Shown piece after piece: positions 6,313 through 45,317 of a stretch of 64,000 nucleotides of DNA. The stretch is from Simplicispira sp. 125 (GTDB taxonomy: Bacteria; Pseudomonadota; Gammaproteobacteria; Burkholderiales; Burkholderiaceae_C), in the NCBI RefSeq assembly GCF_003096555.1, contig NZ_QEKM01000001.1:124001-188000 (forward strand), in the 5' to 3' direction. The translations under genes were made by a program, and so were the position numbers. Under the pieces are notes generated by a model, which was given only the letters and a program-made list of their open reading frames with translations, was not told the origin of the DNA and ran no database searches. Within the stretch, counting starts at the first letter, position 1. Each line of letters opens with the position of its first letter.

Positions 6313-8437
<2,125 letters not shown>

Positions 8438-42531: not shown

Positions 42532-42861
42532 CTATAGGCCCAATAAAACACCCGCAGGGTAGGGCGGCAGGCCATGCCGCAACCGGGCCCGCTCACAGGC
42601 CTCACTGCCCGCGGCGAATTCGCGGCAAGGCGAGGGGCGCCATTCGTAGATGCCGCAGGCGGCCTGGCTGCCCACCTTGCCCGTGAGTGCTGCGCAGCGC
42701 GGCGGACTGTGGTCGGTGCCGCGCATGCGGCGCAGAGTGTCGGTTACTTCCACCACCAGCCCGTCGGGCACGTCGCCGCCCATCTCCTGGGTTTCGTACA
42801 CCGAGAAGTCCACGCGAAAACTGGCGCAGCAGGCGCCACAGGTGAGGCAGGGGTGGGTCAC
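42532..42861 (-). CDS. YkgJ-family CxxCxxCC zinc/iron-binding protein
   Basis: A 109-residue protein starting from the GTG at 42859-42861, giving (M)THPCLTCGACCASFRVDFSVYE. Cys residues CLTCGACC near residue 5, and C-terminal AACGIYEWRPSPCREF near 75, are the YkgJ pattern (DUF of zinc or iron chelation). The GTG overlaps the TGA of the nearest argF-tail copy (GTGA), which suggests the gene was once coupled directly to argF. Function unknown. Confidence 0.85.
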   Translation of the reverse strand: MTHPCLTCGACCASFRVDFSVYETQEMGGDVPDGLVVEVTDTLRRMRGTDHSPPRCAALTGKVGSQAACGIYEWRPSPCREFAAGSEACERARLRHGLPPYPAGVLLGL

Positions 42862-43022
42862 GCCACCTGGCCTAGCAAAAGGTACTCCATGAGCGCCTTT
42901 TGCACGTGCATGCGGTTTTGGCTTCGGCCCGCAGCCTGCGGCTGCTTCACGTCCGCGTTGCGGCCATGAGCCTGCGCCGAAACAGGATGCTGGCGCTGGC
43001 GCGCCACCGCGTTGCACTTCAT
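42858..43022 (-). CDS. Small ORF in the argF-tail repeat (copy near ykgJ)
   Basis: A 54-residue frame, identical to its neighbour except for the last residues (ending LLLGQVA). It starts by ATGA overlap with the upstream small ORF and its stop overlaps the GTG of the YkgJ-type gene. It may simply be a by-product of the repeat; expression is unproven. Confidence 0.3.
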   Translation of the reverse strand: MKCNAVARQRQHPVSAQAHGRNADVKQPQAAGRSQNRMHVQKALMEYLLLGQVA

Positions 43023-43183
43023 GCTACGCGGCCGTGCAAAAGGTACTCCATGAGTGCCTTTTGCACGTGCATGCGGTTTTGGCTTCGGCCCGCAGCCTGC
43101 GGCTGCTTCACGTCCGCGTTGCGGCCATGAGCCTGCGCCGAAACAGGATGCTGGCGCTGGCGCGCCACCGCGTTGCACTTCAT
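43019..43183 (-). CDS. Small ORF in the argF-tail repeat (copy next to argF)
   Basis: A 54-residue frame (MKCNAVARQRQHPVSAQAHG to LLHGRVA) whose ATG overlaps the argF stop in an ATGA junction and whose stop overlaps the next copy. The C-terminal 17 residues are those of ornithine carbamoyltransferase. Probably a by-product of the duplication. Confidence 0.3.
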   Translation of the reverse strand: MKCNAVARQRQHPVSAQAHGRNADVKQPQAAGRSQNRMHVQKALMEYLLHGRVA

Positions 43184-44100
43184 GCTACGCGGCCGAGCAA
43201 AAGGTACTCCATGAGTGCCTTTTGCACGTGCATCCTGTTTTCTGCCTCGTCCCACACCACGGACTGAGGGCCGTCGATCACGTCGGCATCGACTTCTTCG
43301 CCGCGGTGGGCGGGCAGGCAGTGCATGAACAGGGCGTCGGGGCGGGCCGTGGCCATCATGTCTTCATCCACGCACCAGTCGGCAAAGGCTTTTCTGCGCG
43401 CTTCGTTCTCTGCTTCGTAGCCCATGCTGGTCCACACGTCGGTGGTAACCAGGTCTGCGCTGCGGCAGGCGTCTTTGGGGTTGCTGAAAAATTGATAGCT
43501 GGCAGCGCTTGCTCCGCCTGCGCCAACGGCCAATTTCTCATCAACTTCGTAGCCGCGCGGAGTGCTCACATGGACCTTGAAGTCCAGTAACTCGGCGGCC
43601 TGCAGCCAGGTGTTGGCCATGTTGTTGCCGTCGCCCACCCAGGCCACCGTCTTGCCGGCGATGGAGCCCCGGTGCTCGATGAAGGTGAAGATGTCGGCCA
43701 GGATCTGGCAGGGGTGAAATTCGTTGGTCAGGCCGTTGATGACGGGCACGCGCGAATGGGCTGCAAAGCGCTCTATCTTGGTCTGTTCGAAGGTGCGGAT
43801 CATCACCAGATCGACCATGCGGCTGATGACGCGTGCGCTGTCCTCGATGGGTTCAGCGCGGCCCAGTTGGCTGTCGCCCGTGGTCAGGTGCACCACGCTG
43901 CCGCCGAGCTGGTACATGCCGGCCTCGAAGCTCACGCGCGTGCGGGTACTGGCTTTCTCGAAAATCATGGCCAGCGTGCGATCCACCAGAGGGTGGTGCT
44001 TTTCGTAGGCTTTGAATTTCTTCTTGATGACAGCGGCGCGTTCGAACAGATAGGCGTATTCGTCGGCGGTGAAATCTTTGAATTGCAGATAGTGTTTCAT
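43180..44100 (-). CDS. argF: Ornithine carbamoyltransferase
   Basis: A 306-residue enzyme of arginine synthesis that makes citrulline from ornithine and carbamoyl phosphate. Carbamoyl-phosphate site STRTR is at residues 51-55, HPCQ at 129-132, and ornithine-binding HCLP at 260-263. The start ATG 44100 begins MKHYLQFKDF as in relatives; a further upstream ATG overlaps argD. Residues about 189-207 (KLAVGAGGASAASYQFF) are encoded by an in-frame palindromic element. The 3' end has been duplicated downstream. It follows argD with a 20-bp gap. Confidence 0.95.
   Translation of the reverse strand: MKHYLQFKDFTADEYAYLFERAAVIKKKFKAYEKHHPLVDRTLAMIFEKASTRTRVSFEAGMYQLGGSVVHLTTGDSQLGRAEPIEDSARVISRMVDLVMIRTFEQTKIERFAAHSRVPVINGLTNEFHPCQILADIFTFIEHRGSIAGKTVAWVGDGNNMANTWLQAAELLDFKVHVSTPRGYEVDEKLAVGAGGASAASYQFFSNPKDACRSADLVTTDVWTSMGYEAENEARRKAFADWCVDEDMMATARPDALFMHCLPAHRGEEVDADVIDGPQSVVWDEAENRMHVQKALMEYLLLGRVA
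43486..43535. repeat. Palindromic element inside argF (in frame)
   Basis: AAAAATTGATAGCTGGCAGC, GCTTGCTCCGCCTGCGCCAA and CGGCCAATTTC match the dispersed family and encode argF residues about 189-205 on the minus strand. Confidence 0.7.
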
Positions 44101-44120
44101 GCGTGTCTCGTGCGGCGGTG

Positions 44121-45317
44121 TCATTCCGCCAGGAAGGCTGTGACCAGGGGGGCCAGCCGGGCAACGATTTCGTCGGCTTCAACGGTGGTGAGGATGAGCG
44201 GCGGGACGATGCGGATCACGCTCTCGGCTGTCACGCTGATAAGCAGCCCCGCTTCTGCCGCACGGCCGACCAGCACACCGCAGGGTTTGGCCAGTTCCAC
44301 GCCCAGCATCAGGCCCTGACCGCGCACTTCCTTCACGCCCGGTAGGCTGCCCAAAGCGCCTTGCAGCGCGGTTTTGAGGTGCGCGCCCACGGTGGCGGCA
44401 TTTTGCAGCAGGCCGTCTTCTTCCATGATGCGGATGGTTTCCACCCCGGCGCGCATGGCCAGCGGGTTGCCGCCGAAGGTGGTGCCATGGTTGCCCGGCT
44501 GCAGCACTGTGGCGGCCTTGGGGCCCGCCACCACCGCGCCAATAGGCACGCCCGAACCCAGGCCCTTGGCCAGCGGCATCACGTCGGGCAGGATGTCCGC
44601 CCACTGGTGGGCAAACCACTTGCCGGTGCGGCCCATGCCGCACTGCACTTCGTCGATCATCATCAGCCAGCCGCGTTCGTCACACAGTTTGCGCAATTGC
44701 TGCAGGTATTCGACGCGCATGGGGTTCACGCCGCCTTCGCCCTGGATGGTTTCAAAGAACACCGCCACCACGTTGGGGTTGCCCTCGGTGGCCGCCTTGA
44801 TGGCGGCAATGTCATTGAGCGGCACGCGGATGAAGCCCTCGACCAGCGGGCCGAAACCGTTGTGGATCTTCGGGTTGCCGGTGGCCGACATGGTGGCGAT
44901 GGATCGGCCATGAAAGGCTTTTTCGTACACCACAATTTCGGGCTTGGCGATGCCCTTGTCCACGCCGTATTTGCGTGCGATCTTGAGCGCCGCCTCGTTC
45001 GCCTCCAGCCCCGAATTGCAGAAGAACACGTTGCTCATGCCCGAGAGTTCCACCAGCTTGGCGGCGAGCGTCTCTTGCAGAGGCACGTGGTAGTAGTTCG
45101 AGGTGTGGATGAGCTGTGTGAGCTGCTGCTGCAGCGCAGGCACCAGCCGACCATGGTTGTGGCCCAGCGTGTTGACCGCAATGCCGCCCAGTGCATCGAG
45201 GTACTCCTTGCCGTTGACGTCCCAGACGCGGCAGCCCTGCCCACGGGCCAGCGCGATGGGCACGCGGCCATAGGTGTTCATCACATGGGGCGAGGCGGCT
45301 TCAATGAAGGCGGTCAT
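44121..45317 (-). CDS. argD: Acetylornithine aminotransferase
   Basis: A 398-residue class III PLP enzyme that makes N-acetylornithine. The N-terminus GRVPIALARGQGCRVWDVNGKEYLD, the cofactor segment DEVQCGMGRTGKWFAHQ near residue 220, and the PLP lysine region LAKGLGSGVPIGAV near 250 all match the family. It lies immediately upstream of argF in the same direction, giving a partial arginine cluster. Confidence 0.94.
   Translation of the reverse strand: MTAFIEAASPHVMNTYGRVPIALARGQGCRVWDVNGKEYLDALGGIAVNTLGHNHGRLVPALQQQLTQLIHTSNYYHVPLQETLAAKLVELSGMSNVFFCNSGLEANEAALKIARKYGVDKGIAKPEIVVYEKAFHGRSIATMSATGNPKIHNGFGPLVEGFIRVPLNDIAAIKAATEGNPNVVAVFFETIQGEGGVNPMRVEYLQQLRKLCDERGWLMMIDEVQCGMGRTGKWFAHQWADILPDVMPLAKGLGSGVPIGAVVAGPKAATVLQPGNHGTTFGGNPLAMRAGVETIRIMEEDGLLQNAATVGAHLKTALQGALGSLPGVKEVRGQGLMLGVELAKPCGVLVGRAAEAGLLISVTAESVIRIVPPLILTTVEADEIVARLAPLVTAFLAE

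Follow-up and report, generated by a model that had tools for sequence, protein, structure and literature searches.

The argF locus and its tandem array

The window, by which we mean the whole stretch of 64,000 nucleotides of Simplicispira sp. 125 analysed here, contains argF on its minus strand, followed by a tandem array and a downstream gene. TRF detected this array with a period of 161 (score 711), and the locus was resolved into the following features:

43180..44124, minus strand: argF, ornithine carbamoyltransferase, 314 aa (Pfam OTCace and OTCace_N)
43081..43241, minus strand: unit 1, 161 bp, consisting of hairpin P1 with a substitute argF tail, then the core, with GCC at its end
43180..43233, minus strand: tail X1, codons for MHVQKALMEYLLLGRVA and stop
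43140..43151, minus strand: P1-closing segment of unit 1, GCATCCTGTTTC
43076..43143, minus strand: core 1, three-way junction (P2, P3), 84.4 bits with model R1
42920..43080, minus strand: unit 2, 161 bp, with the same spacer as unit 1
43019..43072, minus strand: tail X2, between the two cores, one base different from X1
42979..42990, minus strand: P1-closing segment of unit 2, the same as that of unit 1
42915..42982, minus strand: core 2, 84.4 bits with model R1
42858..42911, minus strand: R, the displaced native end of argF, six bases different from X1
42532..42861, minus strand: downstream gene with a GTG start overlapping the native argF stop (YkgJ-type is the label of an earlier reader)

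The first-pass annotation had described a 161-bp array in which the last 54 bases of argF (the final 17 codons and the stop) occur three times (43180-43233, 43019-43072 and 42858-42911), separated by two identical 107-bp spacers. The array, the three tails and the identity of the spacers were confirmed, but the tails themselves are not identical, with one base difference between X1 and X2, six between X1 and R, and seven between X2 and R. From the sequence, the 161-bp unit is best read as starting eight bases before the 54-bp tail. In unit 1, the opening bases (AAACAGGATGC) recur as their reverse complement within GCATCCTGTTTC, the segment that closes P1, whereas the first bases of unit 2 (AAAACCGC) pair more poorly with their own closing segment, leaving P1 of this unit imperfect. 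Within tail X1, GCAAAAGG pairs with CCTTTTGC. The GTG start of the next gene overlaps the TGA of the outermost tail, which, together with the argF genes with and without units described below, supports the earlier reading of the outermost copy as the native end and of argF as ending on a newer one.

The source genome is a single contig of 3.97 Mb, in which a search with the array found no second array. It contains three copies of the core, two behind argF and one behind metK (G000:C1:2226833). Elsewhere in the window, positions 8275-8408 hold tandem repeats of 18, 27 and 45 bp, which by eye look like collagen-type Gly-X-Y codons.

argF junctions in related genomes

Among 26 genomes of the genus, units are present behind argF in ten, corresponding to ten of the 24 judgeable argF loci; an argF match is absent in the other two genomes (G012 and G024). 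Two units were found in the source genome (G000), G007, G008 and G011 (with an N gap in G011), and one unit in G003, G006, G010, G017, G018 and G025. In the remaining 14 genomes, argF or its end is visible with no unit behind it, the downstream DNA being limited to 103 bases in G015 and 168 bases in G013. G029, which belongs to another genus, has three argF units of 160 bp. Thus, arrays of one, two or three units homologous to that of the window stand behind argF of relatives, which makes an assembly artefact very unlikely as the source of the array. In G017, argF ends with LLGRV next to the core, and the outer copy with LLGKL; comparison of the relatives indicates that the inner argF tail is element-type and the outer one host-type. 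In G007, the P1-closing segments differ between the two units, and each is similar to the beginning of the tail in its own unit.

Structure of the conserved core

The element is composed of a covarying three-way-junction core of ~60 nt with a variable hairpin (P1) before it and the host site ANAAN after it. Its order is an A, P1 (variable in sequence and length), a C, the conserved core ending in GCC, and then ANAAN. An alignment of 39 cores comprised 69 columns with a mean identity of 81%, and RNAalifold predicted a three-way junction with compensatory changes in six of 16 pairs. In 99 model matches (89 distinct rows), 96.7% of the cells were paired and 170 double-change cells were observed, compared with 47 ± 5 after shuffling (reached in 0 of 500 shuffles), with no slid register close, in an alignment that derives from 100 hand-chosen loci and was fitted to the model, and is therefore biased toward structure. 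Wobble cells included 24 G-U and 7 A-C, not counting one U-G pair conserved in 75 rows, and these counts point to the strand that is sense to the host gene.

C(GNA)G triloops are present in 48 of 65 P2 hairpins and 28 of 65 P3 hairpins, counted in sequences that are kin and not independent of each other, as are those behind the covariation, flank, tail-pairing and codon counts of this work. GNA loops are described as giving unusually stable DNA mini-hairpins (PMC4686876), which hints at folding of the element as single-stranded DNA. The minus strand of one tail plus spacer (43073-43233) folded better than all 200 shuffles (z -4.6 as DNA, z -3.2 as RNA), and the plus strand as DNA also beat all shuffles (z -4.0), so that folding energy alone cannot pick the strand. 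The inverted repeat noted in the spacer by the first-pass annotation is real and contributes to the closing helix of the core in predicted folds. In Rfam 15, no family matched the window element above its gathering score; below this threshold, MH_s15 (Mesorhizobial RNA 15) matched 43016-43190 on the plus strand with 22.5 bits against 123. Twelve element loci compared with Rfam yielded one tRNA and nothing else.

Distribution of the element

Searches with the covariance model R1 detected the core in 15 of the 26 genus genomes, in 137 of 399 genomes of the family (59 of 141 genera), in 69 of 399 of the order and in two of 369 of the class (both from the family of the source genome), where the family, order and class scans used strict filters with ~12 candidates scored per genome, making their copy numbers minima. 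A full-depth search of 12 genomes revealed 46 copies in G631, 36 in G844, 28 in G055, 17 in G670 and 11 in G736, and one copy in each of four named-record genomes. The exact spacer-core pattern matched at 18 places, spread over 12 of the 26 genus genomes, and in 21 of the 200 family genomes, where at least two matches (L091 and L092, which show no element) are due to chance; the reversed control pattern gave no matches in either the genus or the family search. One further count of loci also includes chance matches (for example, L124, L134, L197 and L218). The named-genome scan produced at least 120 loci; real copies from Betaproteobacteria are mixed among them with chance matches, and many of the loci (Streptomyces, Olsenella, Prevotella and others) look like chance. 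With a loose pattern, viral contigs also gave at least 120 loci; of the 100 scored with R1, one proved real, a good core at L359:682-746 (69 bits). A blastn search of plasmids and phages with positions 43015-43240 of the window gave no match at E 0.01.

Thus, the array is not a private oddity of argF; it is one member of a widespread element family. The first-pass annotation had suggested that the spacer might be a dispersed element, as opposed to a gene-specific sequence occurring nowhere else, and the searches bear this out, with the core present in many genomes and at many other genes, including genes with a second copy of their end. The identical spacers of the two window units would fit a tandem duplication that only copied the argF end locally, the spacer hairpin being there by chance. 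This reading, to which we give next to no credence, is refuted by the dispersal of the same core over unrelated genes and genomes, and the outer and inner tails are different coding lineages.

We also observed a second, shorter core type (GCGNAGCTCAT-hairpin-GTGAGCGNAGACC; L046, L047, L139 and L184, as well as L097-L100) with an A-rich site and a gene tail after it, which stands together with the main type behind metK. By exact pattern, this type was found in four of 200 family genomes.

Ends and insertion site

The segment preceding the C of the core tends to reverse-complement the first bases of the unit, forming P1. Among 149 distinct instances, a P1 stem of at least eight perfect pairs was found in 62 (against one expected) and was absent in 87. 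Flanking direct repeats at or above the 99th percentile of shuffles, which preserve base composition only, were detected in 96 of these related instances, 88 of which exceed the shuffle maximum, and the other 53 showed no flanking repeat above the threshold. An A follows GCC directly in 146 of 149 instances, a preference that is partly built into the model, AAAAC being the commonest site (33 instances); a G ahead of ANAAN is frequent by eye. The shortest P1 is AAAAC-GNA-GTTTC; examples in G631 lie within a gene for a PAS-domain protein and close to the lysS start. At G631:142328, P1 is not host-like past AAAAC.

The units are ~75-170 bp in size with no gene inside. Tandem periods are 86-91 bp in G1038, G1130 and G1069, and 128-173 bp when P1 contains a gene end. 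At several places in G631 (L321, L485, L488 and L490), a 22-bp mini unit, AAAACGCAGTTTCGGCGAAGCC or a near variant, directly precedes full units; it corresponds to P1 together with a collapsed core lacking both P2 and P3.

Host genes and insertion places

The element was found at the 3' ends of argF, metK, cysH, glmS, recA, groES, proB, ccmE, acs, cheY and ftsW, and on the opposite strand at the starts of ruvC, a CobW-type gene and an rlmB-type gene. In-frame copies are present in genes for RND pumps, CobN, a Mur ligase, ThiD and a PAS-domain protein and in a BioB-like gene. Other copies lie between genes, within elements that have terminal inverted repeats, or beside tRNA-Ser copies, and elsewhere in the same genomes the core is located inside a gene or adjoins a second copy of the local gene end. 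The proposal that the element captures gene 3' ends is therefore only partly correct: it does stand at gene ends, but also in all these other positions. At least one sense frame is open from -200 to +100 in 37 of 149 instances, not all of which are real reading frames.

Eight host fragments were typed with Pfam. The ACR_tran, CobN and Phos_pyr_kin matches span the element, and the PAS and Mur_ligase matches lie across or beside it; metK was assigned by S-AdoMet_synt_C and proB by AA_kinase plus PUA, and the BioB-like gene matched Radical_SAM below the cut-off. The fragment that we take to be cysH gave no Pfam match, and glmS, recA, groES, ruvC, ftsW, ccmE, acs, cheY, lysS and the CobW-type and rlmB-type genes were named by reading translations or DNA. 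Two elements beside tRNA-Ser genes (L211 and L498) have part of the tRNA gene duplicated on their other side. At L252 (G025:C1:1085500-1089000), L253 and L262, the gene end KKSATTRRVVLGFAE occurs up to four times with a variant core, and its copy number varies among three related genomes.

Ten copies of G631 (L481, L482, L483, L488, L495 and others) lie inside an element of ~215 bp or longer with the ends CAGGCCGTTGAAAAAC / GTTTTTCAACGGCCTG, and copies of G736 are inside an element with other terminal ends. These carriers could mean that the core rides in classical DDE-type miniature transposons, whose ends are terminal inverted repeats, a possibility we consider quite improbable: such ends are lacking around the window copies and the other gene-end copies examined, and since two different carriers share the core, it may itself have entered both.

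The element might instead be a cis-acting 3' UTR RNA element acting in stability, termination or attenuation, kept for host function and dispersed only secondarily. Such a role would agree with the strong covariation, the sense-strand G-U pairs and the frequent sense position behind housekeeping genes, and an 80-nt transcript has been described from a Bordetella pertussis locus of the Betaproteobacterial Repeat Element (BRE; PMC3110155), a repeat compared with ours below. However, only ten of the 24 judgeable argF loci of the genus carry a unit, and copies stand in-frame in enzymes and pumps, antisense at gene starts and inside other repeats. We therefore regard an RNA element kept for the host as improbable.

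Substitute gene ends

At gene ends, the P1 loop contains a complete gene end including the stop codon, with the native end pushed outward, whereas in antisense copies at gene starts it contains the start codon. The coding sequence of the inner argF tail is itself a hairpin in one of two covarying forms, GCAAAAGG/CCTTTTGC or GCAGAAGG/CCTTCTGC. Among the tails that fit the search expression, all eight of eight positions pair in 20 of 23 inner tails, four of seven between-core tails, eight of 14 outer tails and four of 18 empty argF genes.

Tails inside units (X) were compared with native ends (R) in 25 pairs, including 19 from argF (13 codons) and six others picked by hand. These related sequences showed 86 synonymous against 16 non-synonymous codon changes, and 84 of 122 base changes were at third positions; in G007 and probably G008, the second tail compared lies between two cores, the outermost one not fitting the expression. 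Of the 13 changed codons in metK of a Gallionellales MAG, 12 are synonymous, as are all 12 in ccmE of G631. X and R often cease to be identical exactly at the stop or start codon or close to it. No change was seen over the 39 bases compared in two of the 19 argF pairs (G190 and SZAS CTRL-42), which fit plain duplication, and several tandem or recent-looking copies are identical along most of their length.

Judged from these comparisons, tails inside units do not usually represent fresh copies of the native end. The earlier model of a simple duplication of gene tail plus element finds no support in that form, since in most pairs compared the tail adjacent to the core is recoded synonymously into a hairpin. 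The hairpin-recoded inner tails, the synonymous changes between X and R and the identity ending near the stop or start codon suggest that the element travelled with a working gene end. Recoded in this way, and differing from R mainly at synonymous sites, the inner tail on which argF now ends is presumably an imported one. A gene interrupted by the element is probably still functional, and insertions in conserved genes seem to do no harm, thanks to the recoded gene end that the element brings along.

Duplication of a gene end with restoration of the interrupted gene is a hallmark of tyrosine-recombinase integration into gene 3' ends, and the argF tail contains a near-palindrome, GCAAAAGGCACT/AGTACCTTTTGC. 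We therefore considered attachment-site remnants of an element of this kind, a very improbable reading that we have dropped: by eye, other targets share only ANAAN with argF and no common crossover sequence, the units are only ~75-170 bp, and the palindrome corresponds to the recoded hairpin.

The strongest rival invokes no current transposition. The element would be an old repeat, whose filled alleles of argF, metK, cysH and other genes have spread between species by homologous recombination of transformed DNA, with tandems generated by unequal crossing-over. The same genes are indeed filled in several genera, X and R are partly identical in their first part and diverge toward the gene end, as crossovers inside the tail would produce, and their differences are mainly synonymous, like those between orthologues. 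Recombination does not sit well with the many unrelated sites in one genome (~40 read in G631, ten of them in one repeated carrier), and it leaves unexplained the ANAAN junction and the pairing of P1 with local sequence. Ordinary recombination between homologous genes accounts for part of the spread, but as an account without current transposition it appears rather unlikely.

The best explanation of the whole, which we consider reasonably probable, is that two copies of a non-autonomous miniature element stand ahead of the native argF end in the array. The dispersal, structure, site, recoded tails and tandem arrays of this element are demonstrated at the sequence level. A unit with its own recoded tail would have inserted at ANAAN in argF, a step suggested by the tail next to the core being mostly a synonymously recoded hairpin. 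The recoded argF unit may have arrived by homing or recombination from the argF of another lineage, and the second, identical unit could have arisen by tandem duplication. On this explanation, the array shows a transposable element living in conserved genes, where the protein code and nucleic-acid folding constrain the same bases. It also calls for caution in annotation, as the C-termini of argF, metK, cysH, glmS, recA and other genes in Burkholderiales may be element-borne.

Possible mode of movement

No enzyme linked to the element was found. Y1 transposases, which would act in trans on a folded single strand if the element derived from the IS200/IS605 type, are present in 22 of 26 genus genomes, both with and without the element, and G010 contains the element with no Y1 match. 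At 11 loci around Y1 genes, there was no significant R1 match. The only Y1 (RAYT-like) gene found in the source genome (L280, G000:C1:2197500-2202500) is flanked by inverted repeats of the AATTGGGGTCAGA / TCTGACCCC type. A RAYT/Y1 transposase was rejected as the partner, given its occurrence with and without the element and its different repeats, although it may be a distant one. A AATTGGAATCTGACCCC string, which resembles the repeats at the Y1 gene of the source genome, was observed directly after the argF unit in G003 and G025.

Tentatively, the element may move as a folded sense single strand mobilised in trans by some enzyme, with P1 made or selected to pair with the target; we would not call this proposal likely. 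The orientation of BRE, described as independent of the replication fork (PMC3110155), speaks against a strict lagging-strand mechanism. Somewhat more doubtful is the existence of a class of miniature elements that combine folded single-strand movement, target choice or copying through P1 pairing at ANAAN, and survival in essential genes through codons recoded into element hairpins. If true, this would be a selfish element with its structure written in the protein code of the host. All comparisons in this work are between species, and no excision or insertion event was observed in them.

Comparison with known systems

Integrative elements at tRNA genes or gene 3' ends carry integrases and are kilobases long. 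The present element resembles them in displacing the native end and supplying a replacement, but its units have a size of 75-170 bp and no gene. It is also similar to REP/RAYT systems in being non-autonomous and built of small hairpins, but the Y1 gene of the source genome is flanked by other repeats, not by copies of the element. REPs are described as 20-40 bp sequences with a GTAG or CGTC foot (PMC3733652), and our core alignment (A1) contains no invariant columns for such a foot. The Rickettsia palindromic element (RPE), of ~150 bp, inserts in-frame in unrelated genes according to a MITE review (PMC10969869). Our element works like the RPE in this respect; it occurs in other taxa, and gene-end substitution is absent from the description of the RPE consulted in that review.

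The closest known repeat is BRE, a tandem repeat of ~90 bp in variable number and sometimes inside genes, known from Bordetella, Polaromonas, Acidovorax, Delftia and others (Hot et al. 2011, PMC3110155). It is described as small (75-91 bp in Bordetella), with ~69% GC (range 63.7-78.9%) and few bases between tandem units, mostly intergenic with some copies in coding sequences, and its function was left open, with mobility as a possibility (PMC3110155). Our element has tandem units of 86-91 bp (G1038, G1130 and G1069) in Comamonadaceae, and is present in Acidovorax, Polaromonas and other Betaproteobacteria, both between and within genes. The GC content of the window cores is 0.68, and that of other matches, 0.46-0.78, is a wider range than given for BRE. 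No Bordetella genome was identified among those searched, and PMC3110155 was the only paper found under the name BRE. Based on size, tandem arrays and taxa, as compared with the published description, the element is probably the BRE of Hot et al. 2011. The substitute gene end, P1 pairing, ANAAN site and three-way junction of the present element do not feature in the description of BRE consulted, and we found no description of gene-end substitution by BRE in the open papers searched. If the two are identical, a previously unexplained repeat becomes a testable system with defined ends, a defined site, a covarying structure and genomes that contain dozens of copies.
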